From: Neokomagataea tanensis
GTDB lineage: Bacteria > Pseudomonadota > Alphaproteobacteria > Acetobacterales > Acetobacteraceae
Assembly: GCF_006542335.1 (NCBI RefSeq)
Contig: NZ_CP032485.1
Span: 2,215,001 to 2,279,000, forward strand
Direction: 5' to 3'
Length of the DNA stretch: 64,000 bases
Shown: positions 18,746-34,359 of the stretch, in pieces
Numbering within the stretch: the first letter of the stretch is position 1
How the letters are laid out: every line of letters begins with the position of its first letter
Translations under genes and position numbers: made by a program
The notes under the pieces: model-generated
Told to the model about the DNA's origin: nothing
Database searches by the model: none
The model's input: only the letters and a program-made list of their open reading frames with translations

Positions 18746-19981
18746 ATGAATAAATGGTCTTATAAATCTTCTCTGCTTGGACTGTTGGCTCTTACAACTA
18801 GTCTTGGCTCAGTGGCATATGCTGGTGAGCCACCACTCCCGACCGACCCTGTCGTTACGCGCTCTCTGGAATCTCAAGATGCCTTGCCTCGTACGGCCTT
18901 TTACAGCACCCCCTCGGATATAGCGACTGCTTTGCCGGGTGCATTGTTGAAGCACGAGTCAGCTGCAAATTATGATTTACCAAAAGGCTTCACTGCAACA
19001 CGTATTTTGTACCGCTCAACAGACTCGCATGGCCAGCCAGTGGCGACTTCAGGCGTAGTAGTTGTGCCACCTGGCAAAGCGCCAGAAGGCGGATGGCCGG
19101 TAATCGTATGGGCGCACGGTACCAGCGGAACAGCAGAAATGTGTGCGCCATCTTTAATGAAAGATGTCTACTACGGTAGTTTGAGGGTTTTTGACCTTGC
19201 TTCTGCAGGGTTTGTTTTGGTCATGACGGATTATCATGGCCTTGGAACGGATGGGCCTCACCAATACATGAACAAGTATGCGCAGGTTGCTGATATCCGT
19301 AACGCGGTACCTGCAGCTCATGCGTTGATGCCGGAATTATCACAAAAATGGTTTGTTGTAGGGCATTCTCAAGGCGCTTATGCTGCTTTGGCTACAGCAG
19401 AAGCCGAGACGAAGGCGAATGATGCTGGCTATCTTGGAGCCGTATCTATCGCTCCGGCCGCGCGTCCAGGAATGATGAATGCCAACATTTCTGCAGTTAA
19501 AAAGGCTGGCGGTCCGTACATGTCGTGGTTAGCCTTTGCTATTAAAGCTCAGTACCCTGAGTTCAAACCGGAAGATTTGTTATCAAAAAAAGGATTGAAG
19601 TTCTATCCTGAAGCAACAGGGGGTGCTTGTTGGTTGACGGGCAATGCATTGTATTATCCATATTCGGCTAAAGAATTGGTTCGGCCAGACTGGAACAAAA
19701 ATAAGTACGTAAAGCAATTCTTTGCTGAACAAACTGTTGGATATGAGAAAACACTTGGTCCTATTTTGTTGGTAGCGGGTGGCGGTGACACGACAATCCC
19801 CATTCGTACGCTTAATTCATACTACAAAGACGCCTGTCACCTTGGTTCAGACATTAAATACCTAGTAGTACCAAATGCCGAGCATGGGGCAGCTATGGTT
19901 GAATCAATGGATACACAAATTTCTTGGTTAAAGTCAGTTCTTGCTGGAAATACGCCAGCTTCTAGCTGCCCTAAAAACTGA
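18746..19981 (+). CDS. Secreted alpha/beta-hydrolase (secretory lipase / esterase type)
   Basis: A 411-residue serine hydrolase. A signal peptide (LLGLLALTTSLGSVAYAG) precedes an alpha/beta-hydrolase fold with VIVWAHGTSG (oxyanion region), the nucleophile elbow GHSQG, a likely acid in AGGGDTTIP and the histidine in PNAEHGA. This set matches fungal/bacterial secretory lipases (LIP family) that cleave esters outside the cytoplasm. The ATG at 18746 is preferred over an in-frame GTG at 18737 because AAGG lies about 8 nt before it. It starts 39 bp after the TonB receptor, which suggests co-transcription. Confidence 0.85.
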   Translation: MNKWSYKSSLLGLLALTTSLGSVAYAGEPPLPTDPVVTRSLESQDALPRTAFYSTPSDIATALPGALLKHESAANYDLPKGFTATRILYRSTDSHGQPVATSGVVVVPPGKAPEGGWPVIVWAHGTSGTAEMCAPSLMKDVYYGSLRVFDLASAGFVLVMTDYHGLGTDGPHQYMNKYAQVADIRNAVPAAHALMPELSQKWFVVGHSQGAYAALATAEAETKANDAGYLGAVSIAPAARPGMMNANISAVKKAGGPYMSWLAFAIKAQYPEFKPEDLLSKKGLKFYPEATGGACWLTGNALYYPYSAKELVRPDWNKNKYVKQFFAEQTVGYEKTLGPILLVAGGGDTTIPIRTLNSYYKDACHLGSDIKYLVVPNAEHGAAMVESMDTQISWLKSVLAGNTPASSCPKN

Positions 19982-19988
19982 TAAATAC

Positions 19989-21884
19989 ATGATAAAACGT
20001 TTGCCTCTGGTACGCTTGTACTTATTTTCTACCATAGCTTATTTTGCTATAGGGCAAGGTTATGCGCAAGATAACCGTTCTGGAGGCAGCGTTATTGCTG
20101 CAGTTTCAGGTTATAACCCTGAAGTTGTGCATACTCAGCCTTTTTGGAGCCAACGTATAGTTGGTTATTTACCAACGCGCGATAATACGGCCTTGCGTTA
20201 TAGTGTTTTACTGCCAAAAGGGAAGGGGCCTTTTCCTGTTGTAATTAATTACAGCGGTTATGACCCTGGCGGTATTGGCAGTGCACCATATTTGACAGGT
20301 GATACAGCAATGTCCGTGAGCCTTGATCGTACGCTGGTAGAAAACGGTTACGCTGTTATGGGAGTAAATGCCCGTGGGACAGGGTGCTCTGAAGGTCACT
20401 TTACGTTTTTAACGTCGTCTTACGGTGAGGATGGTTACGACATTGTCGAGTACGCTGCTGCGCAGCACTGGTCTGATGGGCACATTGGCATGGCCAATTG
20501 GTCATGGGCTGGTATGTCGCAGATTGCCACAGCCTCGACGCGTCCGCCGCATTTGAGCGCTATTGCGCCCGGTATGGTGCTAGCGGACGCACGGTTGGAT
20601 AGCTGGGCGCCGGGGGGGGTGCCGAACATGCAATTTCCCTCGGGTTGGTTGCTATATTTACAGTCACGATGGGACGCTTTGACAGCGGGCGCCCTCAAAG
20701 AAAATGACCAACGTTGTCTGAAGCAGTTGGCGCTTAATACGCAGGCGAATAAAAAATTTAACCTTCGCGATGTTTTGCTACAGCATCCGTTACGCGATGC
20801 AGAAATTGAAAAACGCAATTTAGCAGCAAAAACACACATGATTTCTGCTCCCGTTCTCTCAATGGAAGCTTTTCAAGATGAAGCAGTGACGTCACGCGAA
20901 GGATATTACCAGGATACTTTGCCGGCTAAAAACATTTGGCTGGTGCAAACTAATGGTCAGCACGATGCCTACGAATCCCTCAAATTCCGGAAGGTTTTGA
21001 TCAATTTCTTTGATCGTTTTTTAAAAGGGGACACAGAAAAATTTACTGACACCCCCCATGTTCAGGTTTGGTTAGAGAGTGGATCGCACGGGGAGGGGCA
21101 TGAGAAGGTAGAACAAATGACTCCCCGGATAGTGATTGAAGGAAAAAATTACCCAATTGTAGCAACCCCTAAAGTGTTCACATTGGTCGAACAGGGGAAT
21201 CTTACGATGGATGACAAGCCCTCAGTTGGATATGATTCCTATGCCTATCCCGTACGGGGACCTGATGTAGATGTTGATGCGGATCATTATAGTTGGGGCG
21301 CATTGCCAGATCAGTATAGTCACGGAAGCCTTGCCTATACTTCGGCCCCGTTTACTCAGAATGTGATTGCTTATGGCCCTGCCAGCGCGAACTTATGGGT
21401 TTCATCGGATATGCCGGACACTGATCTCGAGGTTACGCTAACAGAGTTGCGGCCTGATCATCAGGAGATGTTTGTAGAGCGAGGGTGGCTGCGTTTATCG
21501 GACAGAGAACAAAACACCGATAAATCAACTATACTCAGACCGTTTCCTGTAGACCAGATACAAAGCATTCATAGCTTGGCGCCGGATGAGCCTGTCCTTG
21601 GAAGAGTGGAGCTGAGTAAAATGGGACATGTATTTCGTACAGGCTCAAGGTTGCGAATATGGATAGATGCACCGGGCAATTTTGGTGGATACGGTTTTTC
21701 ACCATGGCTTCTCCCAGCAACAAATCGCATTTGGCACGATTCATCACATGTTTCTCAATTTGTTTTGGGAACACTGCCGAACAAAGGGAGCCCAGACATT
21801 AAAATTAGTCACATTCCAGGATCATTATCACCTTGCAATGATGTTCTGATGCAGCCCTGCCGAATTGATCCTTTACATCAATAA
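19989..21884 (+). CDS. Secreted CocE/NonD-family hydrolase (X-Pro dipeptidyl-peptidase S15 type)
   Basis: A 631-residue protein with a signal peptide ending in IGQGYAQ. The N-terminal alpha/beta-hydrolase part contains NYSGYDPGG, NARGTGCSEG, the nucleophile region NWSWAGMSQ and the histidine region NGQHDAY; the C-terminal third is the jelly-roll typical of CocE, cephalosporin acylase and PepX. Members hydrolyse esters, acyl bonds or X-Pro peptides. It begins 5 nt after the stop of the lipase-like gene, so the two are probably one operon; the ATG at 19989 gives a proper signal peptide whereas the longer frame from 19941 overlaps the neighbour. The elbow S-W-A-G differs from the usual S-Y-G-G. 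Confidence 0.85.
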   Translation: MIKRLPLVRLYLFSTIAYFAIGQGYAQDNRSGGSVIAAVSGYNPEVVHTQPFWSQRIVGYLPTRDNTALRYSVLLPKGKGPFPVVINYSGYDPGGIGSAPYLTGDTAMSVSLDRTLVENGYAVMGVNARGTGCSEGHFTFLTSSYGEDGYDIVEYAAAQHWSDGHIGMANWSWAGMSQIATASTRPPHLSAIAPGMVLADARLDSWAPGGVPNMQFPSGWLLYLQSRWDALTAGALKENDQRCLKQLALNTQANKKFNLRDVLLQHPLRDAEIEKRNLAAKTHMISAPVLSMEAFQDEAVTSREGYYQDTLPAKNIWLVQTNGQHDAYESLKFRKVLINFFDRFLKGDTEKFTDTPHVQVWLESGSHGEGHEKVEQMTPRIVIEGKNYPIVATPKVFTLVEQGNLTMDDKPSVGYDSYAYPVRGPDVDVDADHYSWGALPDQYSHGSLAYTSAPFTQNVIAYGPASANLWVSSDMPDTDLEVTLTELRPDHQEMFVERGWLRLSDREQNTDKSTILRPFPVDQIQSIHSLAPDEPVLGRVELSKMGHVFRTGSRLRIWIDAPGNFGGYGFSPWLLPATNRIWHDSSHVSQFVLGTLPNKGSPDIKISHIPGSLSPCNDVLMQPCRIDPLHQ

Positions 21885-21913
21885 AAATAACAGTTTTCCA
21901 AAGGAGTGAAGTT

Positions 21914-22486
21914 GTGCGTACTAAGAGAATTTGTATATCCACAGCCTTAATGTTGATGACCTCCTCTTTCGCTTTTGCTGAAACGTCATCGAAATCGTCC
22001 TTTGCTTCGACGGTTTACGATCCTGTTAAGACAGAATTAGTTTTAAATTTGGTCGTAACCTGCACGGATCCAATTCGACCTGGCCCTAATGCTGCAAGCA
22101 AGGATGGGGAACGCTCCGAAATATGGCCTATTATAGGGGGACGCTTTGATGGACCAGGCATCCACGGCACCGTCGAAGCTGGCGGCGCCGACCTACCAGT
22201 TTTGCGCCCTGATGGCGTGGAAGTTGTTGACGCATTTTATCGATTAAAAACGGATGACGGGCAAATTATTATTATTCACAATAAAGGGTTGGCATATCCT
22301 ATTAAAAATGGACAAGATTATAAATACAGATTGAGCCCTGAGTTCATCGCTCCAAAAGGGAAGTATGACTGGCTCAATAAAAGTATATTTGTCGCTACCC
22401 TTGTGTATCCTGTGCCGAAAGGAATGGAGCTGGCAAGGGGGCCTCACCAAAACGATCGTTTGATACAAGTATTGAGACTTAATTAA
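21914..22486 (+). CDS. Secreted DUF3237 protein
   Basis: A 190-residue protein from a GTG start, with AAAGGAG 7 nt upstream. A signal peptide (ALMLMTSSFAFAE) is followed by a single DUF3237 beta-barrel: IIGGRFDGPGIHGTV, GGADLPVLRPDG, then FYRLKTDDGQII and YDWLNKSIFVA. DUF3237 proteins have no settled biochemistry; they are small beta-barrels often found next to hydrolases and catabolic genes. Export is uncommon for the family. It continues the receptor-hydrolase series and may bind or act on the product. Confidence 0.75.
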   Translation: MRTKRICISTALMLMTSSFAFAETSSKSSFASTVYDPVKTELVLNLVVTCTDPIRPGPNAASKDGERSEIWPIIGGRFDGPGIHGTVEAGGADLPVLRPDGVEVVDAFYRLKTDDGQIIIIHNKGLAYPIKNGQDYKYRLSPEFIAPKGKYDWLNKSIFVATLVYPVPKGMELARGPHQNDRLIQVLRLN

Positions 22487-22511: not shown

Positions 22512-23096
22512 ATGCTACACAATAAAAACTCTGAAAATACATCAGAAATTGACCATGCTGTAGGATATCTCATTCGAGAGCATAGAAAGCAAAACGGTCT
22601 GCAGTTAAGAAATGTAGCATCTCGTGTCGGTATTTCCGTGAGCCATCTTAGTCAAATAGAGAGGGGGGCAACTTCTCCGAGTGTACGAGATTTAATGAAA
22701 ATCGCGGAAGTCTTGGAGTTGGATGTCTCTAATTTTTTTCAGTCTTTTCAGGGACAAGCATCAGATATTGCTAAATTTTATACAAGAAAAGAAAGTCATA
22801 AAAAAATTACCTTTAACGATGGGATTACAAAAGTTTGCCTAAATTCACAAAAGCCCGAATTGTTGAGAACATATTTGATGATTATTCAACCAAATGGACA
22901 TTCAGGAGACAAGCATTTGTCACATGCTGGTTTTGAAGCTGGTTTTATAATAGAGGGAACGCTTCATTTACAGGTTAATAGTCAGTATTGTGTATTAAAT
23001 GAAGGTGATTCTTTCTCTTTTCTAAGTCATCTTCCGCATAAGTATGAAAATAGAACAAACGTTATTACAAAAGTTATGTGGTCAAACACTTTATAA
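22512..23096 (+). CDS. Cupin-containing XRE-family regulator (PuuR-like)
   Basis: A 194-residue cytoplasmic regulator. Residues 15-72 form an XRE helix-turn-helix (LRNVASRVGISVSHLSQIER, then ATSPSVRDLMKIAEVL); residues 110-190 form a cupin domain with HAGFEAGFIIEGTLHLQ and a late HLPHKYEN. This architecture is shared with PuuR and related repressors of polyamine, amine and amino-acid catabolism, whose cupin senses a small molecule. It is placed between the hydrolase group and an amino-acid/amine permease, upstream of the amine dehydrogenase cluster, so it is a candidate regulator of either. Confidence 0.85.
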   Translation: MLHNKNSENTSEIDHAVGYLIREHRKQNGLQLRNVASRVGISVSHLSQIERGATSPSVRDLMKIAEVLELDVSNFFQSFQGQASDIAKFYTRKESHKKITFNDGITKVCLNSQKPELLRTYLMIIQPNGHSGDKHLSHAGFEAGFIIEGTLHLQVNSQYCVLNEGDSFSFLSHLPHKYENRTNVITKVMWSNTL

Positions 23097-23199: not shown

Positions 23200-24507
23200 A
23201 TGACACAAACGCTCGACCATTCTCTGCACCCGAGACACATCGTTATGATTTCTATAGGAGGGATCATTGGGGCCGGTTTTTTCATCGGAGCTTCAGGTCC
23301 TATCTCTATGGCCGGGCCGGGCGTAATAGTTACCTACGCATTTAGTGGGCTTCTCACAATTTTTGAGAGCTTAATGCTGCGGGATATTGCTCTAAATTCT
23401 GTTGAACCTGGTTCATTTATTATGTCTCTGCGGTCGATATTGGGACGAAGTTTAGGGTTTATCGCAGGTTGGACTTATTGGATTATTTGGGTTGTAACTT
23501 TGGCAATAGAAGTAATTGGAGCCTCTGACTTAATCAGGGAGTGGATCCATATTCCGTTTACGCTTATCGAATTAATTGTTTTGTCAATTGTCACAGGAGC
23601 AAATCTGGTATCAGTACGCAATTATGGTGAGGTCGAATACTGGCTTTCTATTATAAAAATTATGGCTCTTGTTTCTTTCATATTAATTAGTCTGGGTTCT
23701 TTATTTTTAGGAATTCATGCCATGGAAAATATGCATAGTGCCTCTGGGTTTTTACCTAATGGATTAACAGCTCTATTCGCTGCCGCACCAACTGTTGTTT
23801 ATTCTATGTCTGGTAGTGAAGTAGCTACTATTGCAGCGCTTGAATCTGGTGATCCCCGGGGCAATGCTTCCCGTTTATCACGTGTTGTCGCGCTAAGCGT
23901 AACCAGTCTTTATTTTTTCAGTATTGTGGCTTTGTTAAGCTTGGTTTCATGGGACAAAATAATGCCCGGACAATCTCCGTTCCTTTACGCTTTAAATATC
24001 ATACATATGCCATTTGCTAGCACTGTAATGACAATAATAATTTTAACTTCAATGTTGTCGACACTTAATTCGGGAATTTATGCAACATCTAGAATTACGT
24101 TTGAGATGGCAGAGGTTGGGGATGCGCTTGCGTCGTTTAAGAAATTAGACGTACGCAACAATCTGCCGGTAAGGGCTATTCTTTTATGTTCTCTAGGCAC
24201 ATTGCTGGTTGCAATTCTAGCAATTATCTCTCCCAATTTGGTTTTTGCATTCCTTGCTTCCGCAAGCGGTGCAATGATAATTCTTCATTACGGTTTAATT
24301 ACAACTGCCCGCGTTATTTTATCTAAGAAAAATCTGTGGAAAGCGTGGGTAACCTTTATTTTGTTGCTTGTTGTTATCGTTTCCATGGTTATTATTCCGA
24401 GTGCCCGTTACGAGCTTGTTGCCGGTATTCTTGCGTTTTTCATTGTTGGTGTTGCTGAAAAAATAACTAGAGCAAGACGAAAGAAGTGGTGTGCCTTTTC
24501 GCGATAA
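23200..24507 (+). CDS. APC-family amino-acid/amine permease (GABA-permease-like)
   Basis: A 435-residue inner-membrane transporter with about 12 hydrophobic segments. The first helix carries SIGGIIGAGFFIGASGPISM, the substrate-binding glycine motif of amino-acid permeases, and the sixth-helix region has YSMSGSEVATIAALES as in GabP/AAT transporters. These proteins import amino acids, GABA or related amines with protons. The gene lies just downstream of the PuuR-like regulator and ends at a hairpin at 24506, so it may be the uptake step for the amines oxidised by the next operon. Confidence 0.85.
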   Translation: MTQTLDHSLHPRHIVMISIGGIIGAGFFIGASGPISMAGPGVIVTYAFSGLLTIFESLMLRDIALNSVEPGSFIMSLRSILGRSLGFIAGWTYWIIWVVTLAIEVIGASDLIREWIHIPFTLIELIVLSIVTGANLVSVRNYGEVEYWLSIIKIMALVSFILISLGSLFLGIHAMENMHSASGFLPNGLTALFAAAPTVVYSMSGSEVATIAALESGDPRGNASRLSRVVALSVTSLYFFSIVALLSLVSWDKIMPGQSPFLYALNIIHMPFASTVMTIIILTSMLSTLNSGIYATSRITFEMAEVGDALASFKKLDVRNNLPVRAILLCSLGTLLVAILAIISPNLVFAFLASASGAMIILHYGLITTARVILSKKNLWKAWVTFILLLVVIVSMVIIPSARYELVAGILAFFIVGVAEKITRARRKKWCAFSR

Positions 24508-24572: not shown

Positions 24573-25742
24573 ATGCGTTGGTCAATTACACTTTTTGTTG
24601 CACTTGCTGTTTTTTCTACGCCAGCTCTAGCGGAGCCAGAACCCATTCCACAAACAGAAGAAAGCGACATTATAAAACTTCCCCCTTGGAGTGCTCATCG
24701 TATCCTCGTGCAAGATACTGTTGCACGACATGCTAAGGACGGTCGTGTCTATGTTTTGGATGCTGATCAAGGCAAAATTCTTGGTATGGTCCAAGAATCT
24801 TATAATGGAAATGTGGTTCTTGATCCGAAGGGGCGGTCTTTCTACGTGAGCGAGACTACGTGGTCTCGTGGTAACCGCGGTGAGCGGAATGATCTCTTGG
24901 CTTCTTACGACCCACAGACGTTTCAAATTGAAAATGATTTTAAGTTACCCGGACGGGCGTTGGTAACGCCGAAAAAAAATAACCTTGCAATCAATGCCGA
25001 TGGGAGCTTGGTGTACGTTTTTGATATGGTACCAACCAATGCGGTACACGTAATAGAAACTAAAACACATAGTCTTTTAAAAAACATCGATTTGCCTGGC
25101 TGCGCTTTAGTATACCCTTGGGGGAATAGTGGTTTTTCATCAATATGTGGTGACGGTGGTCTTTCTAATGTCTTAATAGATCACGACCATATAGAAGTTA
25201 CGCACACTAAACCTTTTTTCGATCCAGAGAAGGATGCAGTATTTGAGCACAGTCCGTCCGATAAAAATACTGGGCAGACTTTTTTTATTACTTATAGTGG
25301 TCTTGTTTATCCATCTACCTTAAGTGCACAAACGACCGTTGAGAAACCTTGGTCTATCCAAGAAGCTGCTGGACTACCGCGTGCATCTGATGCTGGAAAA
25401 CCATTCGAAATAGCATGGCGACCTGGTGGATGGCAGCTGTCTGCTCTCCATTACGCAACACACCGCATGTACGTCGTTATGCATAAAAATACATTCTGGA
25501 CCCACAAAGAAGATGGAACAGAAATTTGGGTATTGAATACTGAAACCCATAAGCTACTGCACCGATTTACTTTACCTGAGCCCACATCCATGGTTGGCCT
25601 TACCCAAGATGCGCACCCTTTGATGTTCACTGATGATGCACATGGTGGTTTTTACATTTTTGACGCTGAAAACGGCAAACTCCTTCACAAGATTTCTCAC
25701 CTTGGTGATGATCTCTACTTTACAGTCGCCTTGGGTGAGTAA
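24573..25742 (+). CDS. aauB: Amine dehydrogenase heavy chain (aromatic amine dehydrogenase type)
   Basis: A 389-residue periplasmic protein with a signal peptide (LFVALAVFSTPALAEPE) followed by seven-bladed beta-propeller repeats such as GRVYVLDADQGKILGMV and GGFYIFDAENGKLLHKI. This is the heavy subunit of MADH/AADH-type quinoprotein amine dehydrogenases, which with the TTQ light chain oxidise primary amines to aldehydes plus ammonia. It opens an operon whose order B-E-D-A plus a monohaem cytochrome matches the published aau cluster of Alcaligenes faecalis. The stop overlaps the next start (TAATG). Assignment to aromatic rather than methylamine is by cluster layout and light-chain motifs. Confidence 0.88.
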   Translation: MRWSITLFVALAVFSTPALAEPEPIPQTEESDIIKLPPWSAHRILVQDTVARHAKDGRVYVLDADQGKILGMVQESYNGNVVLDPKGRSFYVSETTWSRGNRGERNDLLASYDPQTFQIENDFKLPGRALVTPKKNNLAINADGSLVYVFDMVPTNAVHVIETKTHSLLKNIDLPGCALVYPWGNSGFSSICGDGGLSNVLIDHDHIEVTHTKPFFDPEKDAVFEHSPSDKNTGQTFFITYSGLVYPSTLSAQTTVEKPWSIQEAAGLPRASDAGKPFEIAWRPGGWQLSALHYATHRMYVVMHKNTFWTHKEDGTEIWVLNTETHKLLHRFTLPEPTSMVGLTQDAHPLMFTDDAHGGFYIFDAENGKLLHKISHLGDDLYFTVALGE

Positions 25743-26263
25743 TGGAATTTCATGCGTCTCTTGCTTCAGCCCTACTTGCACATATCGGCTCCGGTATGAC
25801 TGCGGCGGTGTTTCTCTCATCAGCTATCGGTAAAGCACAAAATATCGATGATACGGCAAGCCTTGTCGCATCTTATCGTCTCTTGCCGCTTTCATGGTCT
25901 TTTACAGCGGCTTACGCTGTAATTGCTGCTAATTTTATGGCCGGGATCGCTTTATTAGCAGGGTTTAAAATCGGTGTTGGCCTCGCCGTGGCTCTGTTAC
26001 TCCTTTACGCTATCGCAATGGGTATTAACGTCGCAAAAGGCCGTACGAACATCACCTGCGGCTGCATCCCCGGCAGCACAACGTTCTTAGGGTTGGGAAG
26101 CATAATGCGAACACTTAGCTGGGTTATCCTAGCGTCTGCTCCGCTGAACTGCCCACACTCACCCGCCTTGTTTGCTGTAAGTGGAAACCTCCTCGGTATT
26201 GCAGCCTTTATCCTGTTCGTGACCACCGATACCCTCCTCGAAATCCGGGCGGTTCGGGCATGA
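25742..26263 (+). CDS. aauE: MauE/AauE-family amine dehydrogenase maturation membrane protein
   Basis: A 173-residue inner-membrane protein of the DoxX/MauE superfamily with four hydrophobic segments and the loop motif NITCGCIPG carrying a cysteine pair. MauE works with MauD to bring the cysteine-rich light chain through disulfide formation in the periplasm. It overlaps aauB by 1 nt and aauD by 4 nt, so translation is coupled. Confidence 0.88.
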   Translation: MEFHASLASALLAHIGSGMTAAVFLSSAIGKAQNIDDTASLVASYRLLPLSWSFTAAYAVIAANFMAGIALLAGFKIGVGLAVALLLLYAIAMGINVAKGRTNITCGCIPGSTTFLGLGSIMRTLSWVILASAPLNCPHSPALFAVSGNLLGIAAFILFVTTDTLLEIRAVRA

Positions 26264-26838
26264 TGATTTTTTTAATTATCTCCACCTTTGCCCTGATTAT
26301 TGCGGTTCTCGTACTGGCAATCATGCTCCTCGCGATGAGCCGCCAAATTGGTATCCTGCATGAACGGCTAGCACCCATTGGCCCTCAGAACACGATACAA
26401 GGGCTTAGCGTCGGGCAAGCAGTACCCGAGATTACGGCCCGCCACCTTGATGGCAGCGCCATTACTCTCGCCGGTACGCGCGCGCAGGCACGCCCCTCAT
26501 TAATCATGGTCGTTGGTGCTGATTGCCCCGTGTGCAAACGCACCCTTCCTTTGGTCCATGAGGCCACCCAAACCCGCAATATCGACCTGATATTACTGGG
26601 GGACGGAGAGATCGAAGCCCTGCGCGCTATGGAACGTTCGCAAAACCTTCCAGCGCCACTTGTTATCTCGCAAGAGCTTTTGCTGCTTTTGCAAATCAAC
26701 CGCCTACCAACACTTATCTTACTTGATCCGCGCGGCATCATCCGTGCGCTGGATGTTGCAACAACAACAAGCGACATCGCAGCTCTGCTCGATACAATCA
26801 CACAGCTCAAAAAGGAGGCCCAGCATGTCTCAGCCTGA
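26260..26838 (+). CDS. aauD: MauD/AauD thioredoxin-like disulfide protein
   Basis: A 192-residue protein with one N-terminal membrane anchor (residues 3-26) and a periplasmic thioredoxin fold holding the redox motif CPVC (C89-C92). MauD is required for the six disulfides of the amine dehydrogenase light chain. The cis-proline neighbourhood INRLPTLIL is visible. The gene overlaps the light-chain gene by 14 nt. A diverged paralogue with CPVS lies at 33775. Confidence 0.9.
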   Translation: MMIFLIISTFALIIAVLVLAIMLLAMSRQIGILHERLAPIGPQNTIQGLSVGQAVPEITARHLDGSAITLAGTRAQARPSLIMVVGADCPVCKRTLPLVHEATQTRNIDLILLGDGEIEALRAMERSQNLPAPLVISQELLLLLQINRLPTLILLDPRGIIRALDVATTTSDIAALLDTITQLKKEAQHVSA

Positions 26839-27370
26839 ATCAAGTCGTTTTGACGGCATTACAGAAAGCGTGATGCGCCGCATCGCTAGCCATACTGCAC
26901 GCCGCTCTTTCTTAGGCCGCGTTGGCGCTTGGGTGGTCGGTGGTATCGCTCTTCCTATGCTGCCTGCAGCCCGTGCAGCAACCAAAACAGAGAAGCCGAA
27001 AGCCCCATCACCATTCTCTGCAAAAGCACAAACGACAGACGCCACCGCATGCAATTACTGGCGTTATTGCGCCATTGACGGTTATTTGTGCTCTACCTGT
27101 GGCGGAGGAGTCCATTCTTGCCCACCTGGTACCCAACCCTCCCCAACCTCATGGATCGGGACGTGCTTTAACCCCGGAGACGGCCAGTCTTACCTCGTAG
27201 CATACCGTGATTGCTGTGGCCAAGACGCATGCAGCCAGCAAATGTGTATTGGTACGGATGGGGAACAACCAAGTTACCGTCCACAATCAAACAATGATAT
27301 TATCTGGTGCTTCGGTACCGGCTCTCTCGTTTACAACTGCTCAACATCCGTTATCGTCGGAGAAGCCTAA
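26825..27370 (+). CDS. aauA: Amine dehydrogenase light chain, TTQ-bearing subunit
   Basis: A 181-residue precursor with a Tat signal (ARRSFLGRV, residues 25-33). The mature part has twelve cysteines (six disulfides in the family) and the two tryptophans that cross-link into tryptophan tryptophylquinone: W110 in SWIGTC and W161 in NNDIIWCFG. Asp85 (AIDG) and Asp129 (YRDCC) match the two conserved aspartates of MADH. The first half (CAIDGYLCS, PSPTSWIGTC) resembles aromatic amine dehydrogenase while YRPQSNNDIIWCFG resembles methylamine dehydrogenase. The start at 26825 follows AAAAGGAGG. The stop overlaps the next start (TAATG). Confidence 0.93.
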   Translation: MSQPESSRFDGITESVMRRIASHTARRSFLGRVGAWVVGGIALPMLPAARAATKTEKPKAPSPFSAKAQTTDATACNYWRYCAIDGYLCSTCGGGVHSCPPGTQPSPTSWIGTCFNPGDGQSYLVAYRDCCGQDACSQQMCIGTDGEQPSYRPQSNNDIIWCFGTGSLVYNCSTSVIVGEA

Positions 27371-27825
27371 TGCTCAAACACGCTTTCCTTATTGCCCTGA
27401 CCGTTATGCCCGCGTTCGCTGTTGCTGCAACACCCGGACAAGATGTGTATGACCAAAACTGCTCTGTCTGCCACCAAGCAGCAGGCGCAGGCTCAACAGG
27501 CCAATTTCCTCCACTGAAAGGGCGTGTTGATAAAATTGCCTCGTCTCCTGATGGTAAAAAATACCTCGCTGACGTTGTGCTGAATGGTCTGCATGGCCCC
27601 ATCACGGCTGCAGGTTCACCCTATGCTGGTTTTATGCCGTCGTTAAAGTCGCTTTCAGATGACCAAATTGCCTCCGCACTTACTTATTTGATTTCTTTGG
27701 GAGATACAAAGCCAGCCCCAACGATTGACGCCGCCGTCATTGCTGGTGAACGCAGCACACCAAAGAAATCCAAAGAGATATTAGCCGAACGCAAAGCCTT
27801 GGATGATGCACACCTAGTACCCTAA
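27370..27825 (+). CDS. Periplasmic monohaem cytochrome c
   Basis: A 151-residue protein with a signal peptide (FLIALTVMPAFAVA) and one haem motif CSVCH (31-35); M89 in YAGFMPSLKSLSD is the likely axial ligand. It belongs to the small cytochrome c class that follows aauA in the A. faecalis aau cluster (orf-2). It presumably takes electrons from the reduced amine dehydrogenase, since no azurin/amicyanin gene is in the window. It is translationally coupled to aauA by the TAATG overlap. Confidence 0.88.
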   Translation: MLKHAFLIALTVMPAFAVAATPGQDVYDQNCSVCHQAAGAGSTGQFPPLKGRVDKIASSPDGKKYLADVVLNGLHGPITAAGSPYAGFMPSLKSLSDDQIASALTYLISLGDTKPAPTIDAAVIAGERSTPKKSKEILAERKALDDAHLVP

Positions 27826-27838
27826 GAGGCATCGTACC

Positions 27839-28318
27839 GTGAGCGTTTCATTCTTAAAACGAGCAGCAATATTTTTCGTTATTGTGGGCGGCTTTTTGTG
27901 CTTCTCGTTCAACCCGTCAGTCGCTCACGCGACTGGGGTTAATCGCGCCGTTTTTAACTATCTGACGCATTGCGGCGGCTGTCACGGCATCGAAGGGCAG
28001 TCTGGCGATTCAGGCATTCCATCCCTGCGTGATCATGTTGATGTGTTCTTGTGCTCCAAAGAGGGACGCGCCTATCTTGGACAGGTACCAGGCGTCTCTA
28101 TGTCACTAATCCGCAGCGATCAAGAACTCGCTGATGTGTTGAATTTTATGGTCTTCCAATTCGGCGGAGAAAGCCTTCAACCTAATACAAAACCCTACAC
28201 GGCGGCTGAAGTACATGCTCTTCGGCAACACCCCGTTAAGGTCGATGATATTATGACCTACCGGGCTGAAATTTTAGGAAGGGCACTGCCAGCGTGCCAA
28301 CACTCGAAAACTCCGTAG
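27839..28318 (+). CDS. Second monohaem c-type cytochrome
   Basis: A 159-residue protein from GTG 27839, with a signal peptide (IFFVIVGGFLCFSFNPSVAHA) and haem motif CGGCH (C45, C48, H49). Methionines in GVSMSL or NFMVF could be the sixth ligand. It has only one haem site, so it is not MauG, the dihaem enzyme that completes TTQ in methylamine dehydrogenase. Its place between the dehydrogenase genes and the Rieske gene suggests a carrier to bc1. The function is inferred from position. Confidence 0.75.
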   Translation: MSVSFLKRAAIFFVIVGGFLCFSFNPSVAHATGVNRAVFNYLTHCGGCHGIEGQSGDSGIPSLRDHVDVFLCSKEGRAYLGQVPGVSMSLIRSDQELADVLNFMVFQFGGESLQPNTKPYTAAEVHALRQHPVKVDDIMTYRAEILGRALPACQHSKTP

Positions 28319-28372
28319 CGTAATACAATGCAGAACATACACATACGTAACGTTCCACTATGGATATAATCT

Positions 28373-28999
28373 ATGACAGACTCAAAACCCGCTAACCCTG
28401 CTTCAACCAGCCGCCGTGATATCCTAGCCCGCGGCACACTTGCCGCCGCTTGTGCAGGGGGCTGCGCGGTCGCACTGCCGTTTCTTGGCAGCTTACGCGG
28501 AACACGAGACGCCGCCTTTGCTACGCCTGAAACCGTGGATGTTGACCTCTCCAGCGTGCATGAAGGCGCACAAATTACCGTAACATGGCATGGTTGGCCG
28601 GTCTTTGTGCAGCGCCGTAGCCCGGCCATGCTTGCGTCTCTAAAAGCACCAACACTTCTGTCGCGCTTGCGGGACCCTAATTCAAAAATACTCCAACAGC
28701 CAAAAGATGCTGAAAACTGGCACCGCTCTATTATCCCTGAAATAGGCATTTACATCGGTATCTGCACACATTTGGGCTGTATTCCCAATTTCAATATGGC
28801 CAATGGCCCCGATACTGCCCGATACCTCTGCCCATGCCACGGATCACATTTTGACATCGCCGGACGCGCGTTTTTAGGGGCACCAGCCCCCTATAACCTT
28901 CCTGTTCCACCAGCGACGCTCCTCGCTAATCAGAAAATACGCATCGGTGCCAGTGCTGGTGATCCGCATTTTGACATTACCGCCATTCAACAGGTGTAA
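28373..28999 (+). CDS. petA: Ubiquinol-cytochrome c reductase iron-sulfur (Rieske) subunit
   Basis: A 208-residue protein with a Tat-type N-terminus (TSRRDILARG) and one membrane anchor, then the Rieske domain with CTHLGC (C131, H133, C136) and CPCHGSHFD (C153, C155, H156), ligands and disulfide of the 2Fe-2S cluster. It passes one electron from quinol to cytochrome c1. First gene of a complete petABC set 54 bp after the second cytochrome gene. Confidence 0.95.
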   Translation: MTDSKPANPASTSRRDILARGTLAAACAGGCAVALPFLGSLRGTRDAAFATPETVDVDLSSVHEGAQITVTWHGWPVFVQRRSPAMLASLKAPTLLSRLRDPNSKILQQPKDAENWHRSIIPEIGIYIGICTHLGCIPNFNMANGPDTARYLCPCHGSHFDIAGRAFLGAPAPYNLPVPPATLLANQKIRIGASAGDPHFDITAIQQV

Positions 29000-29002
29000 A
29001 CC

Positions 29003-30172
29003 ATGAGCGAGCAACAGAAACAGGGCTGGCTAGAACAACGCTTACCCATTGTTTCCGCTTTTCGGCGGGAATATATTGATTTTCCAATGCCGCCAAACCT
29101 GAATTTCCTCTGGAATTTTGGCGCTTTTGCAACCATCGCTCTTGGTTTCCTTGTAATCAGCGGCATCTTCCTTGCCCTGAACTACACACCAAGCATTAAC
29201 GGTGCCTTTGCCAGCGTTGAAACCATTGACCGGTCCGTTGCATGGGGTTGGTTTATCCGTGGCCTCCATATGGGGGGCGTTACAATGTTGTTTGGCTCCC
29301 TCTACATCCATATGGGCCGTGGCCTCTATTATGGTTCCTATAAAGCCCCGCGTGAGGTCTTGTGGCTCACTGGTATGGGGCTATTTGTCCTCGTCATGAT
29401 CATCGCTTTTGCGGGTTATGTTTTGCCTTGGGGGCAGATGTCTTTCTGGGGGGCAACGGTCATTGTAAACGCCCTTGGTGCCATACCCGTTATTGGCCAG
29501 CCGCTGTCCTCTTTGCTCTTTGGTGAAGCACCCTTGGGCGATATGGCCTTGCACCGTATGTTTGTCGTGCATTTTGCACTGGCCTTCGGAGCAATGGCCG
29601 TTATTGCGCTGCATGTTGCAGCTCTGCATGTAACGGGCTCCAACAACCCAACTGGTGTACCTACTCGCAAGAAAGTGCCGTTTCACCCTTACTATACAAC
29701 CAAAGATTCCTTTGGAATTTGCTTGTTTCTCATGGTTTACGCCGTTTTGGTATTCTTCCTACCCGGCATCTTAACCCTAGCTGATAATTACATCGAAGCG
29801 AACCCCATGGTCACGCCGGCAGATATTACGCCAGAGTGGTATTTTGCCCCATTTTACGCCGTTCTACGTGCTGTTCCTTCGCGTTTGGGCGGGTTGTTAG
29901 CCGCAGCAGGCTTATTGCTCGTTGTGGTTGCTGTACCTTGGTTGGACCGTGGACCAATCCGCTCCGCTCGGTTCCGTCCGATGATACGCCTTGGCTTAGG
30001 TGCGGCTTTCTTGGCCTTTATCGCCCTCGGTATTGCCGGAATGCAATCACCTGACACGCTCTGGATATGGACCGCCCGTATTGCAGCCTGTGTTTGGTTT
30101 GGGTTTTTCCTCGTTCTTCTACCATGGGCCAGTAAGCATGATGACCACTTTCGGGTTGTGGAGGCAGACTAA
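29003..30172 (+). CDS. petB: Cytochrome b of the bc1 complex
   Basis: A 389-residue, eight-helix membrane protein. Haem ligands are in RGLHMGG and YIHMGRGLYYG (second helix) and FVVHFALAFGA and ALHVAALHVTGSNNPTG (fourth helix); the quinol-site motif PEWYFAPFYAVLR is present. Together with PetA and PetC it forms the quinol:cytochrome c oxidoreductase of the inner membrane. The start lies 3 nt after petA. Confidence 0.96.
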   Translation: MSEQQKQGWLEQRLPIVSAFRREYIDFPMPPNLNFLWNFGAFATIALGFLVISGIFLALNYTPSINGAFASVETIDRSVAWGWFIRGLHMGGVTMLFGSLYIHMGRGLYYGSYKAPREVLWLTGMGLFVLVMIIAFAGYVLPWGQMSFWGATVIVNALGAIPVIGQPLSSLLFGEAPLGDMALHRMFVVHFALAFGAMAVIALHVAALHVTGSNNPTGVPTRKKVPFHPYYTTKDSFGICLFLMVYAVLVFFLPGILTLADNYIEANPMVTPADITPEWYFAPFYAVLRAVPSRLGGLLAAAGLLLVVVAVPWLDRGPIRSARFRPMIRLGLGAAFLAFIALGIAGMQSPDTLWIWTARIAACVWFGFFLVLLPWASKHDDHFRVVEAD

Positions 30173-30173
30173 C

Positions 30174-30869
30174 ATGCAAACACACCCTACTAAAATCCTC
30201 GTGGCATCCCTCGCAGCCTTTTTCTGGGCGCAGAATGCCCACGCAAAAACACCTGAGCAACGCGGGTTTGAAGTCTATCAACATGTCTGTAGTACCTGCC
30301 ACAGCATGGACCACGTCCGCTTTCAGGACCTGCATTCCTTGGGCATATCCGTAGACGACATTAAGGCTTATGCTGCCAGTAAGCAGATCCCCGATGGCTT
30401 GGATGATGACGGCGAACCCAAAACACGCCCCGGAAAACCAAATGATGTTATTGGTTCACCATACCCAAGCCCTTCTATGGGTCGCATGGCTAATCACGGT
30501 ATTCTACCCCCTGATTTTTCACGCATAGCCCTCACGCATCCCGGCGGGGCCGCATGGATTGAGCACATGCTTCAATCGTTCACCACATCGCCAGATAAAA
30601 ATATCCATGTACCTCTCGGGGCATATCAAAACACCGCCACGAAGCTTGGATATATCATGATGCCCCCACCGCTTCATGAAAATGGGGTGCATTATACCGA
30701 TGGGACAAAAGCTACCGTGCCACAAATGGCGCAGGACGTTGCGGCGTTTTTGGACGCAACAGCCCACCCGCACCAGACATCACGCAAGAATATTGGCTGG
30801 GGTATTCTCGTATATCTCGCTATCATGACTCTGCTAACCGCGGTTCTGAAACGACGCGTCTGGCGGTAA
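30174..30869 (+). CDS. petC: Cytochrome c1 of the bc1 complex
   Basis: A 231-residue protein. A signal sequence (LVASLAAFFWAQNAHA) precedes haem motif CSTCH (C39, C42, H43); GYIMMPPPL carries the methionine ligand, and a C-terminal anchor (YLAIMTLLTAVLKRR) holds it in the membrane. The start is at 30174, one base after the petB stop. The operon ends in a strong hairpin. No cytochrome c oxidase genes are seen in the window. Confidence 0.95.
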   Translation: MQTHPTKILVASLAAFFWAQNAHAKTPEQRGFEVYQHVCSTCHSMDHVRFQDLHSLGISVDDIKAYAASKQIPDGLDDDGEPKTRPGKPNDVIGSPYPSPSMGRMANHGILPPDFSRIALTHPGGAAWIEHMLQSFTTSPDKNIHVPLGAYQNTATKLGYIMMPPPLHENGVHYTDGTKATVPQMAQDVAAFLDATAHPHQTSRKNIGWGILVYLAIMTLLTAVLKRRVWR

Positions 30870-30874
30870 CGAGA

Positions 30875-30901
30875 GTTACCCCCTTATTTCTTGGGGGTAA
30901 C
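30875..30901. terminator. Convergent intrinsic terminator
   Basis: A 9-bp stem GTTACCCCC/GGGGGTAAC with a 9-nt loop, followed on the + strand by ATTTTAT. It lies between petC and the convergent FAD oxidase gene and overlaps that gene's last codons. Confidence 0.75.
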
Positions 30902-32152
30902 CATTTTATCTTGCAAGCGCTTGAAAAGAATAGCCCCCGAAACCCCTATTTTCCAAAAGGGATGCCCTAAGATGGGGTTTATACCTGTAAACGGAAAAAG
31001 GGGCGGAGCACCTTGCGTCACATGCTCACTCAGAGCCTGCCCCGTGACCGTAGCCATTGCAACGCCACGGCCGTTATAACCCAACGCAGCATAAAGACCG
31101 GGCTGTGGGTTATGCCAATGCGGATAATGATCCATCGTCATGGCCAGTTGCCCGTTCCAACCATGCGTCCAGGCAGCGCCGGATAAATGGGGCCATAATG
31201 TCTTAGCGTGACGTATTAAAAACTTAAATGACTGCGGACCAAAAGCCTCCCTCGATTGGGATCGCCCACCAATCAGTAAGCGTTTTTGCGCATCGATACG
31301 GTAATATGTGGTGACCTCCCCAAGCTCATAAACCACTTCACGCTGCGGTAAGATCGTTTTAATCAAATCATCCGTTAAGGGCTGGCTGGCCACAATTCCG
31401 CTGTATAACGGCACAATCGAGCGTTTTAAACGCGGCATCAGCCCCGTGGTGTAACCGTTGGTGGTCACAATCACAGCGCCTGCATGCACACGGCCATGTG
31501 CCGTAGTAACTTCCCACCCTGCGCCCTGCTGTACCAATTTTTGTGCAACAGTTTGTTCAAATAAGCGTGCGCCTTCGGCCTGAGCCGCTTGTGCAAGGCC
31601 GCGCGTGTAGGCAAGGGGATTTAACTGGCCGCCGCGCGGGTCTAATAACCCACTGACATAATAATCACAGCCTGTGCGGGAAGCTATAGCCTTTGCATCA
31701 AGCCATTCTACAAGATGGTTTTCATGCTTAAGCTGTGAGCATAAATCATCCAGAGGGGGAATTTGACACTTGGCTGTTGCGGCGCGAATTGTACCCCCCT
31801 GAACCGCATCACACGCAATATTATACTCTTTAATCAACTCAAACACGCGGTTTGGTGCGTTCCAGCTTGCGCTGATTAACTGTGCACCACGTTCTGCGCC
31901 AAAATATCTTACAATGTCATCAGGGGGTGTTTTGAGGCCGGGATTAACCTGCCCGCCATTACGACCTGATGCCCCAAAACCGAGTGTTTCCGCTTCGAGA
32001 AGAACAACGGAATGGCCCGATTTTGCCAAATGTAGAGCTGTTGAAAGCCCTGTAATACCACCACCGATAACACAAAAATCAGCTGTAACGTCCTCTGTCA
32101 ACGCTGCTAAAGTCAGCGATGTCATTGGCTGCTCGTAGGTGGTTTTCAGCAT
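30884..32152 (-). CDS. FAD-dependent amine/amino-acid oxidase (PuuB/OrdL-like, DAO family)
   Basis: A 422-residue flavoprotein of the DAO family. The N-terminus has the dinucleotide-binding motif VIGGGITGLSTALHLA and GFGASGRNGGQVNPG, the latter typical of gamma-glutamylputrescine oxidases; near the end lie AALGYNGRGVAMAT, the FAD-closing motif. These enzymes oxidise a secondary or primary amine to an aldehyde with release of an amine and transfer to oxygen or quinone. It neighbours an aldehyde dehydrogenase on the same strand, as in puu clusters. The substrate is not certain. Confidence 0.85.
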   Translation of the reverse strand: MLKTTYEQPMTSLTLAALTEDVTADFCVIGGGITGLSTALHLAKSGHSVVLLEAETLGFGASGRNGGQVNPGLKTPPDDIVRYFGAERGAQLISASWNAPNRVFELIKEYNIACDAVQGGTIRAATAKCQIPPLDDLCSQLKHENHLVEWLDAKAIASRTGCDYYVSGLLDPRGGQLNPLAYTRGLAQAAQAEGARLFEQTVAQKLVQQGAGWEVTTAHGRVHAGAVIVTTNGYTTGLMPRLKRSIVPLYSGIVASQPLTDDLIKTILPQREVVYELGEVTTYYRIDAQKRLLIGGRSQSREAFGPQSFKFLIRHAKTLWPHLSGAAWTHGWNGQLAMTMDHYPHWHNPQPGLYAALGYNGRGVAMATVTGQALSEHVTQGAPPLFPFTGINPILGHPFWKIGVSGAILFKRLQDKMVTPKK

Positions 32153-32228: not shown

Positions 32229-33659
32229 TTAAACCGTATCCCACCCGATGACGGCTTTTACTTCCGTAAAGTCATGCAGGCCGAAGTCGCTGCACTCGCG
32301 GCCATTGCCGGATTGCCCAAAACCACCGAAGGGCACTTTGACCGTCCACGCACTGCCATTGATATTAACGTTACCGGCACGCAAACGACGCGCAATTTTG
32401 CGCGCACGCTCCAAATCGCCGGACTGAATATAAGCTGCCAAACCATAGACAGTATCATGTGCCAAGGCGATGGCATGTTCTTCGTCATCATAGGCAATAA
32501 TCGATAGGACGGGACCAAAAATTTCTTCTTTAAAGACGGTCATGTCTGCCGTTACATTACCGAAAATAGTTGGCTTTACATAATACCCGACAGACAGCCC
32601 TTCTGGCCGGCCCAAGCCACCTGTGACCAAGGTGGCACCTTCGGCGATTCCGCGCTCAATCAAAGCTTGAATGCGGTCATATTGCAAATCGCTGACCACT
32701 GGCCCCAGATCTGTGCTTGAATCTTCAGGGTTGCCCACCTTCAGTTCTTCAGCGCGTGCCCTCGCAATTTCAAGGGCTTCATTCATACGATTGCGTGGCA
32801 CCAACATACGCGTTGGTGCGTCACAAGATTGGCCTGAATTGCTAAAGCAGTTCGAAACCCCACTCCGCACGGCTTCCGTCAAATCTGCATCATCAAGGAT
32901 AATATTTGGCGATTTTCCTCCCAGTTCTTGATGCACGCGTTTGATAGAATCTGCTGCAGCATGCGCCACCGCTGCACCAGCGCGGGTAGATCCTGTTAGT
33001 GACACCATATCGACATCAGGATGGCGGGATAGAGCTTCACCAACGTCAGGCCCTGTGCCATGAACCATGTTGAACACACCGGGGGGCAGTCCAGCTTCCT
33101 CAACAATTTCTGCAAAGATAATAGAGGATAGGGGGGCAACCTCACTTGGCTTTAGGACCATTGTACAACCAGCTGCTAGCGCCGGAGCCACCTTGCATGT
33201 GACTTGGTTCATAGGCCAATTCCAAGGGGTAATTAGTGCGCAAACGCCGACAGCTTCACGTGTAATCAAACAATGATCACGTTTTTCTTCGAAAACAAAA
33301 CGCTTCAGCGCTTCAATCATTTCCGCGATATGAGCTTGACCTGCCCACGTCTGACTGTCACGTGCGCGCTCAATAGGGGAACCCATTTCTAGGCTGATAG
33401 CCTGCGCCATATCCTCGGAGCGTCTTTGGTAAATATCTAAAATTTTCTGTAGCACAACCAAACGCTCAGCCCGCGTAGAACTGGACCAGCTGTTAAAAGC
33501 TTTCTTTGCCGCCGCTACAGCACTCTGGACATCTTCGGCTGTTCCTAAAGCCAAGGTAGCAACCGGCTTTTCGGTAGCGGGGTTAATGACGGACAATGTT
33601 TTATTGCCTAAAGGAGTAGTCCAGACACCGTTAATATAGAATTCTTGCGAATGACGCAC
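32229..33659 (-). CDS. NAD(P)-dependent aldehyde dehydrogenase
   Basis: A 476-residue aldehyde dehydrogenase. Visible are LITPWNWPMNQ (cofactor pocket), VSLTGSTRAGAAVA, the catalytic glutamate in HQELGGKSPN and the catalytic cysteine in FSNSGQSCDAPTRM. It would oxidise the aldehydes produced by the amine dehydrogenase or by the FAD oxidase located downstream on the same strand (77 bp gap). Substrate assignment is by context only. Confidence 0.9.
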   Translation of the reverse strand: MRHSQEFYINGVWTTPLGNKTLSVINPATEKPVATLALGTAEDVQSAVAAAKKAFNSWSSSTRAERLVVLQKILDIYQRRSEDMAQAISLEMGSPIERARDSQTWAGQAHIAEMIEALKRFVFEEKRDHCLITREAVGVCALITPWNWPMNQVTCKVAPALAAGCTMVLKPSEVAPLSSIIFAEIVEEAGLPPGVFNMVHGTGPDVGEALSRHPDVDMVSLTGSTRAGAAVAHAAADSIKRVHQELGGKSPNIILDDADLTEAVRSGVSNCFSNSGQSCDAPTRMLVPRNRMNEALEIARARAEELKVGNPEDSSTDLGPVVSDLQYDRIQALIERGIAEGATLVTGGLGRPEGLSVGYYVKPTIFGNVTADMTVFKEEIFGPVLSIIAYDDEEHAIALAHDTVYGLAAYIQSGDLERARKIARRLRAGNVNINGSAWTVKVPFGGFGQSGNGRECSDFGLHDFTEVKAVIGWDTV

Positions 33660-33774: not shown

Positions 33775-34359
33775 ATGATGGATATCTTTTCTCTTTTCTA
33801 TGTGCACGTTGGTCTTTGGGTCTGTGTGGGCACTATAATTTTTGCATCTATTTTGATTCAGCAACATATGAACAAATTATTTAGTAAAATTGCACCGATT
33901 GGCGCTCTAACCCCGAATAATCTTTTACCTGGTGCATTACCTTATCAGAAAGCAACCATGCTGGATGGTTCTCAGGCGGATTTAAAAGAAGCATGTCTTC
34001 TATTTGTGGATGCTTCGTGTCCTGTTTCACGTAAAATGATCCCCATAGCCCGCAGCTTCGCTCACAAAGAACAACGACTTCTCATTTTATGTACCGACGC
34101 ACCGGAAAATTCTTTAGATGAAGCGTGTAGAGTATTGAGGGCTGAAGCGAACGAAATTACAAATGGGCCTGTATTGGGTCAGTTTATTGGCGTTGATCGG
34201 CTGCCTTTCGGGGTTCTCGTCTCTGACGATTATACTGTTTTGGCGCGTGGACTCGTAAATAGCCGTGAGCATCTTGAAAGTTTGTCTGTCTCTGTGAAAA
34301 CAGGGTATGCTTCTATTCAAAATTATTTGGAAAATAATAAATATAATATTATTAATTAA
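33775..34359 (+). CDS. MauD-like thioredoxin-fold membrane protein with CxxS motif
   Basis: A 194-residue protein of the MauD family: an N-terminal anchor (residues 10-30) and a segment LLFVDASCPVSRKMIPIAR, where the MauD CPVC motif is CPVS (C82, S85). Loss of the second cysteine suggests isomerase-like or binding rather than oxidase function. It is divergent from the aldehyde dehydrogenase gene. No MauE partner is adjacent. Downstream are short open frames and a retropepsin-like gene on the same strand. It may serve a second, unseen cysteine-rich client, or be a relic of a duplicated aau cluster. Confidence 0.7.
   Translation: MMDIFSLFYVHVGLWVCVGTIIFASILIQQHMNKLFSKIAPIGALTPNNLLPGALPYQKATMLDGSQADLKEACLLFVDASCPVSRKMIPIARSFAHKEQRLLILCTDAPENSLDEACRVLRAEANEITNGPVLGQFIGVDRLPFGVLVSDDYTVLARGLVNSREHLESLSVSVKTGYASIQNYLENNKYNIIN

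Follow-up and report, generated by a model that had tools for sequence, protein, structure and literature searches.

What is a cytochrome bc1 complex doing beside an amine dehydrogenase in an acetic acid bacterium that appears to lack a cytochrome c oxidase? The question is raised by a 64,000-nucleotide stretch of Neokomagataea tanensis DNA (NZ_CP032485.1, positions 2,215,001 to 2,279,000; hereafter the window, from whose first letter all unprefixed coordinates are counted). In it, the genes of a predicted tryptophan tryptophylquinone (TTQ) amine dehydrogenase, two c-type cytochromes and a bc1 complex follow one another on the plus strand (24573–30869). As a tentative answer, to which we give somewhat less than even weight, we propose that in acetic acid bacteria whose cytochrome c oxidase was lost, bc1 was retained or recruited as a cytochrome c:ubiquinone reductase powered by protons, through which periplasmic amine dehydrogenases supply a chain ending in quinol oxidases only, and that the window species, alone in its sampled small-genome clade, keeps bc1 because of its fusion to that use.

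An earlier, sequence-only reading of the window had described aauB-E-D-A, two c-type cytochromes and petA-B-C on one strand, with gaps of 0–54 bp. Pfam matches and coordinates confirmed this gene content: aauB-mauE-mauD-aauA, two monohaem cytochromes c and petABC are consecutive, overlapping or no more than 54 bp apart, and free of frame breaks. The spacings from the heavy chain to petC are -1, -4, -14, -1, +13, +54, +3 and +1, so that several genes overlap, by up to 14 bp. The widest gap is the exact join between the amine module and petABC.

The amine module opens with the heavy chain (aauB/mauB, 24573..25742; PF06433 (Me-amine-dh_H), 1.9e-49; TIGR02658, 170.4 bits, below the cut-off of 454.45), followed by the accessory membrane protein MauE (25742..26263; PF07291, 3.7e-17), a MauD-like thiol-disulfide protein (26260..26838; PF00578 (AhpC-TSA), 5.6e-7; TIGR02661, 116 bits, below the cut-off of 188.6) and the light chain (aauA/mauA, 26825..27370; PF02975 (Me-amine-dh_L), 8.5e-50; PDB 3c75_L, 1.9e-51), in which a twin-arginine-like leader was recognised by eye. 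With both chain families, MauE and MauD present, the module is that of a TTQ amine dehydrogenase. Light-chain residues W110, W161, D85 and D129, invariant in ten aligned sequences, align with the TTQ tryptophans and catalytic aspartates of the methylamine dehydrogenase light chain (presumably W57, W108, D32 and D76 in its numbering). Among PDB entries, methylamine dehydrogenase (5.9e-41) and aromatic amine dehydrogenase (7.5e-38) match the heavy chain about equally well, so the aromatic specificity implied by the earlier label aau is only one possibility.

Two cytochromes complete the module. The first, cytC1 (27370..27825), is a c552-like monohaem cytochrome c (CSVCH; PF00034 (Cytochrom_C), 1.2e-10; Thermus cytochrome c552, 1.3e-17) that also resembles part of the cytochrome c subunits of alcohol dehydrogenases (8gy2_B, 3.1e-8). 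The second, cytC2 (27839..28318), is a monohaem cytochrome c (CGGCH) with a GTG start, which matches no Pfam family and Thermus c552 at 1.7e-7. A cytC2 match lies 3' of the light chain in all 80 named loci (the best 80 of 270 confirmed stretches, some shortened by contig ends), and both cytochromes were therefore assigned to the amine module. No MauG-like gene was found near the operon in 84 locus maps (the 80 named loci, L107–L186, plus L073, L074, L076 and L079; tblastn with the two CCP/MauG-family proteins of the genome itself, 1e-6); one candidate partner is cytC2, invariably placed behind the light chain.

Beyond the 54-bp junction lie petA, the Rieske protein (28373..28999; TIGR01416, 168 bits, over the cut-off of 97.4; Rieske, 7.2e-6; twin-arginine-signal family, 7.6e-6), petB, cytochrome b (29003..30172; PF00033, 4.4e-54; PF00032, 6.1e-32), and petC, cytochrome c1 (30174..30869; PF02167 (Cytochrom_C1), 1.9e-61). 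The ligand boxes are intact (CTHLGC and CPCHGS in petA, the four haem-ligand histidines and PEWY in petB, CSTCH in petC), and the claim of a full cytochrome bc1 operon, with the metal-ligand motifs examined for Rieske protein, cytochrome b and cytochrome c1, is upheld. The complex appears to be encoded with its presumed feeder, as cytC1-cytC2-petABC on one strand. Within the petA motif CPCHGSHFD, phenylalanine takes the place of Tyr165, as in every Rieske match listed. This exchange has been linked to lower potential and activity (PMC10715153). With the Rieske potential lowered, forward flow would presumably suffer more than flow in reverse.

The respiratory chain of the genome (2.577 Mb, two contigs; counted within Gluconobacter in our survey) bears directly on where electrons from these cytochromes could go. 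A search with PF00115, which would also catch subunit I of a cbb3 oxidase, gave two places: CyoB (1118 bits, over cut-off), beside a CyoA over cut-off, and a degenerate 401-amino-acid COX1-like protein (L002:1456-2661) with a weak CtaD match, adjoining what by eye is a ctaB-like gene. No cytochrome c oxidase was thus found by this profile search, in line with the expectation of the sequence-only reading. A degenerate COX1-like protein beside ctaB has already been described for Acetobacter (PMC10715153). Genes similar to cydA and cydB are also present, with cydB over its cut-off, and the oxidases found in the genome are, as predicted from their genes, quinol oxidases. Cytochrome c1 is single copy, and PF00032 gave one full match plus a partial one (22.5 bits; cut-off 20.7) in an 802-amino-acid frame.

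A published proposal for the family would have bc1 kept solely to stabilise Complex I (PMC10715153). In the window genome, the best NuoD match reaches 44 bits against a cut-off of 459; across Gluconobacter, 25 of 26 genomes have no NuoD over cut-off, and 21 of these 25 carry cytochrome c1 (scored throughout as a PF02167 match). Conversely, the five Asaia genomes counted as lacking c1 (G085 and G149, shown without a match; G259, G286 and G343, absent from the match list) have NuoD over cut-off in four cases and in two pieces in the fifth. This explanation is hardly credible, and with no NuoD over cut-off we reject it in the window genome, barring a diverged Complex I that escaped the search. 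A NuoD-like module does lie at L321:8367-13684 (about C1:218-224 kb), near the cydAB-like genes; it encodes a 490-amino-acid NuoD-like protein whose score falls far short of the NuoD cut-off, together with what look by eye like membrane subunits. Each of the 26 Gluconobacter genomes searched has a weak NuoD-like frame.

Reduced cytochrome c might alternatively be consumed outside an oxidase. Two genes of the cytochrome c peroxidase (CCP)/MauG family lie elsewhere in the genome, at 152.8 and 67.9 bits, both far below the MauG cut-off of 443.85. One encodes a 488-amino-acid CCP-family protein with three CxxCH motifs, whose best match over most of its length is 9qdt, a 'probable cytochrome c peroxidase' in PDB that we identify with the quinol peroxidase YhjA of E. 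coli; the other protein is nearest 6nx0. Given these best matches, neither gene offers an evident sink for reduced cytochrome c, and none was found elsewhere in the genome; other consumers, e.g. nitrite reductases, were not searched for. The presence of the CCP-family protein nevertheless lends something to a reading in which bc1 runs forward into a shared cytochrome c pool, quinol and amine electrons both reducing cytC1, which a peroxidase or another acceptor would oxidise; so do the proposal, cited in PMC10715153, that acetous taxa reoxidise cytochrome c by means of a cytochrome c peroxidase, and the retention of bc1 with a neighbouring cytC1-like gene in all 19 Gluconobacter genomes that have c1 and no light chain. 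Against it, the three-motif peroxidase has the quinol-type best match just described, and peroxide supply would limit amine oxidation; we regard it as unlikely. In those 19 genomes (L087–L093, L237–L248), the cytC1-like gene adjoining petABC is divergent in 15 and convergent in 4.

In the reverse-flow scheme that we favour, the periplasmic TTQ amine dehydrogenase would oxidise a primary amine and pass the electrons singly to the monohaem cytC1 and cytC2. Because the cell seems to lack an oxidase for cytochrome c, these would hand them to cytochrome c1 of bc1, which, reversed by the proton-motive force, would reduce ubiquinone; the quinol would then be oxidised by the bo3 (and bd) oxidase, regaining more charge than the reversal costs. 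With midpoint potentials near +0.1 V for TTQ and ubiquinone and of about +0.2 to +0.3 V for c-type cytochromes, moving electrons from cytochrome c back to quinone takes energy. For every two electrons, about two charges are spent in reversing bc1 and about four are regained at bo3; thus, the reverse route can still conserve energy.

Electron transfer between the enzyme, the cytochromes and bc1 is predicted here from gene content and order. Some working link between amine dehydrogenase and bc1 is probable, and the chances of the full reverse-flow scheme seem to us evenly divided; reverse flow through bc1 would be the simplest route fitting the parts list. This path from amine through cytochrome c and reversed bc1 to a quinol oxidase had been suggested from the sequence, and the positional tie, the single c1 and the failure to find a cytochrome c oxidase favour it, while the direction of flow is what we infer. 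As for its being a new use of bc1, a possible reverse electron transfer in the Gluconobacter chain has already been suggested in print: Richhardt is reported to have invoked it, or sodium pumping by bo3, for the low proton yields of G. oxydans, in a sentence that names neither amines nor bc1 (PMC4869267). For Acetobacter pasteurianus 386B, one paper describes as unknown whether cytochrome c, once reduced, can be oxidised again (PMC3751514), and another calls the function of bc1 in acetous bacteria questionable (PMC10715153). In the open-access literature, no paper on amine dehydrogenase genes of acetic acid bacteria was found among the titles and abstract openings of the papers listed, which does not show their absence from print.

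The arrangement in the window makes a single transcript for the amine module and petABC plausible. A permease of the amino acid-polyamine-organocation (APC) type, for amino acids or amines (23200..24507, plus strand; PF00324, 9.3e-61), lies 65 bp upstream of aauB and is possibly the first gene, so that the transcript may start at 23200 or earlier. Terminator-like sites occur at chance level (10 found versus 9.0 +/- 2.7 in shuffles), as do promoter-like sites (9 versus 7.8 +/- 2.8), and the earlier observation that no terminator is met until 30875 consequently carries little weight. In the junction (28319..28372, plus strand), where the promoter scan reports no promoter-like site, a TATAAT hexamer (28365–28370) ends 2 bp 5' of the petA start codon, and given this hexamer an internal promoter could lie in the gap.

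To place the locus in the family, 397 Acetobacteraceae genomes were considered. PF02975 matches occurred in 37 of them, 36 over cut-off; the remaining match, G122:C1:1656488-1656691 (in L094), comes from a relative of 2.0 Mb and is the remnant of a light chain, interrupted by four stops. Scoring the enzyme by its light chain, both clusters lie within 3 kb of each other in all three Gluconobacter genomes (the window genome included) and all four Asaia genomes that carry it, and within 20 kb in 9 of 37 Acetobacter genomes and in none of 13 Gluconacetobacter or 3 Komagataeibacter genomes, G242 and G387 being counted as Acetobacter, G042 as Gluconacetobacter and G379 as Komagataeibacter. Among the named loci, linkage was seen in 2/2 from Gluconobacter, 4/4 from Asaia, 4/30 from Acetobacter, 0/11 from Gluconacetobacter, 0/3 from Komagataeibacter, 0/1 from Ameyamaea, 0/1 from a Rhodospirillales metagenome-assembled genome and 0/28 from all other groups (within 10 kb).

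The linkage spans two bc1 lineages and at least four arrangements. Co-directional order was seen in the window genome only; the head-to-tail fusion described earlier is therefore real there and not a general feature. In G. thailandicus (G218), G. frateurii (G390) and four Asaia genomes (G192, G228, G307, G327), the clusters converge on a MauD-like gene between them, with about 1.6–2.0 kb from light chain to cytochrome c1, compared with 2.9 kb in the window. The Acetobacter estunensis group has petB-petC-petA about 4–11 kb from the amine cluster, and G429 is divergent, with 375 bp between the heavy-chain and petB matches. The linked bc1 of Acetobacter belongs to a different lineage from that of the window. 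In a quick-method petB tree (leaving out identical rows, matches below 250 amino acids and 20 of the 30 L037–L066 rows), the window falls within a petABC clade of Gluconobacter and Asaia (support 99, 26 rows), which also holds petB of the 19 Gluconobacter genomes with c1 and no light chain, apart from the Acetobacter petBCA clade (100, 31 rows). In a tree of amine-module proteins from the window and 26 selected loci, the window lies outside the clade formed by the convergent Gluconobacter and Asaia operons and the Acetobacter tropicalis type (96/95), and its arrangement is therefore not a simple copy of the convergent one. Its cytC1 sits weakly with the A. tropicalis type (84).

The four nearest relatives of the window species (G250, G180, G131, G054; 2.2–2.6 Mb) all lack PF02167 and PF02975 matches; their grouping with it (98/95) comes from a tree of a single NuoD-like gene, in which the program flagged long branches. 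Of the nine Asaia genomes sampled, four have both clusters and five neither. On the poorly resolved NuoD tree this joint state changes at least three times, and one well-supported sister pair differs in both clusters.

Such patterns speak for a working link. A rival reading is that the clusters adjoin without shared function, brought together by accretion or joint transfer as an island of a genome that is shrinking. The restriction of head-to-tail order to one genome fits an island, and so do the presence of petBCA in some Acetobacter genomes without the light chain and the tests of co-occurrence that fall short of significance. In Acetobacter, petBCA occurs in 31 of 37 genomes with the light chain and 4 of 12 without (Fisher p 0.0019, uncorrected), which favours the link; phylogenetic pairing of 43 of the 49 genomes (G420, G424, G428, G435, G439 and G440 dropped; low power) left petBCA concordant in an average of 2.8 of 6 pairs, with none discordant (sign test, median p 0.25). 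A broader class, 'petBCA or slow-evolving petBC', defined post hoc after seeing the data, gave 37/37 versus 5/12 (p 9.2e-6) and 2.3 of 6 pairs concordant, none discordant. For Gluconobacter and Asaia together, bc1 is found in 7 of 7 genomes with the light chain and 19 of 28 without (p 0.098, uncorrected). The tests agree in direction and do not prove dependence, because linked clusters can move together. Nonetheless, an island leaves unexplained why linkage recurs in four arrangements and two bc1 lineages, and why it is absent from the sampled Gluconacetobacter and Komagataeibacter; we consider it improbable.

Regarding the classes used in these tests, assignment of Acetobacter petB by identity alone was dropped, being contradicted by the tree (G117, G421, G422) and by gene order, and G117, G413, G421, G422, G423, G432 and G435 were reassigned to split petBC; of the 31 petBCA genomes, G362, G417, G437 and G440 owe their place to petB identity alone, whereas the tree places G430. 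A check for petB decay as the reason for the fast petBC copies turned up little, ligand or PEWY changes occurring in 2 of 26 distinct matches (L229, L231). One Asaia petB row, from a broken Asaia platycodi gene, also departs in these residues.

Several observations weigh against a bc1 dedicated to amine oxidation, beginning with the non-significant pairing and the uncorrected Gluconobacter and Asaia comparison given above. Cytochrome c1 in 35 of the 36 genomes with a light chain means little, because 356 of all 397 have it. Among the 26 Gluconobacter genomes, 22 carry cytochrome c1 and three the light chain; 19 of the 22 thus keep bc1 without the enzyme, and there it must have another use or be a relic. 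Three of the four lone convergent cytC1 genes in this set cluster (86) with cytC1 from the G. frateurii and G. thailandicus operons and look, from this tree, like leftovers after dehydrogenase loss. Gluconobacter and Asaia genomes can gain or lose both clusters in a single event. Apart from the window, the linked loci of these genera are convergent, so no transcript is shared there. In A. pasteurianus SKU1108, petB of the operon is disrupted, with a paralogue elsewhere (PMC5158111). Finally, the exception among the 36, G037, has two amine dehydrogenase loci (L084, L085) and no PF02167 match, and therefore another electron exit exists at least there. Its best CtaD score (9.4e-175) is in the CyoB range, and its electron exit seems to be neither bc1 nor a cytochrome c oxidase. 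As G037 and the 19 Gluconobacter genomes show, neither module strictly requires the other.

G037 also gives some substance to a route in which the amine cytochromes reach ubiquinone through another membrane cytochrome, e.g. the cytochrome subunit of the pyrroloquinoline quinone alcohol dehydrogenase, leaving the bc1 neighbour unneeded. The likeness of cytC1 to part of that kind of subunit points the same way. Such a route has a low probability in our view, as it accounts neither for the recurrent linkage with two bc1 lineages nor for the joint absence of both clusters from the four nearest relatives.

Other genes flank the run. Upstream lies an XRE-cupin regulator (22512..23096, plus strand), PuuR-like below cut-off (NCBIfam PuuR, 4.9e-23; 81.6 bits, cut-off 211); a permease is found upstream of aauB in A. 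tropicalis-type loci as well. Downstream, the minus strand carries an FAD-dependent oxidoreductase nearest L-pipecolate oxidase (30884..32152; NF050086, 312.4 bits, below the cut-off of 600) and an NAD-type aldehyde dehydrogenase (32229..33659; TIGR01804, 459.7 bits, below the cut-off of 668.6), a 71–74% identical gene adjoining the operon in seven A. tropicalis-type loci; it is plausibly the next step after amine oxidation. A second MauD-like protein follows (33775..34359, plus strand; TIGR02661, 73.8 bits, below cut-off), of a kind that stands beside the amine operon in many relatives. Further upstream, a cocE-like gene and its neighbour (19941–22486) are mostly 70–88% identical to Asaia genes of the same locus (L069–L072, L114). 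The pet proteins are about 55–69% identical to those of Asaia, a lower value, and parts of the region may therefore have different histories.

If bc1 serves amine respiration in reverse, this would explain why cells with no cytochrome c oxidase still feed electrons into cytochrome c, would suggest a job for a complex whose role in these bacteria has been puzzling, and would constitute an organotrophic counterpart of the iron-oxidiser pathway considered below. The question is testable in culturable strains, e.g. G. frateurii, G. thailandicus and A. pasteurianus.

Compared with known mau/aau clusters, the window operon shares the order B-E-D-A, with heavy chain, MauE, MauD and light chain, and the conserved TTQ tryptophans and catalytic aspartates. 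It differs in that no MauG-like gene lies nearby, in that two monohaem cytochromes take the place of a cupredoxin, and in the attachment of petABC; the known systems hand their electrons to a cytochrome c oxidase. The qcrABC genes of Gluconobacter oxydans, from the genus surveyed here, likewise encode a bc1 of unclear function without a known cytochrome c oxidase, the difference being that 19 Gluconobacter genomes with c1 have no amine dehydrogenase. Mutation of bc1 impairs the growth of G. oxydans in acid (PMC6861446). The soluble cytochrome c named for this species, GOX0258, is not a neighbour of qcrABC, GOX0565-0567 (PMC4869267). The closest precedent for the proposed direction is the petI operon of Acidithiobacillus ferrooxidans, where bc1 genes also form one run with a proposed feeder, cytochrome c4, and the complex works in reverse, with flow to quinone (PMC2754497). 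In that organism, electrons come from Fe(II) and continue to nicotinamide adenine dinucleotide, and an aa3 oxidase is present, whereas in the window system the proposed donor is an amine and the proposed sink a quinol oxidase.

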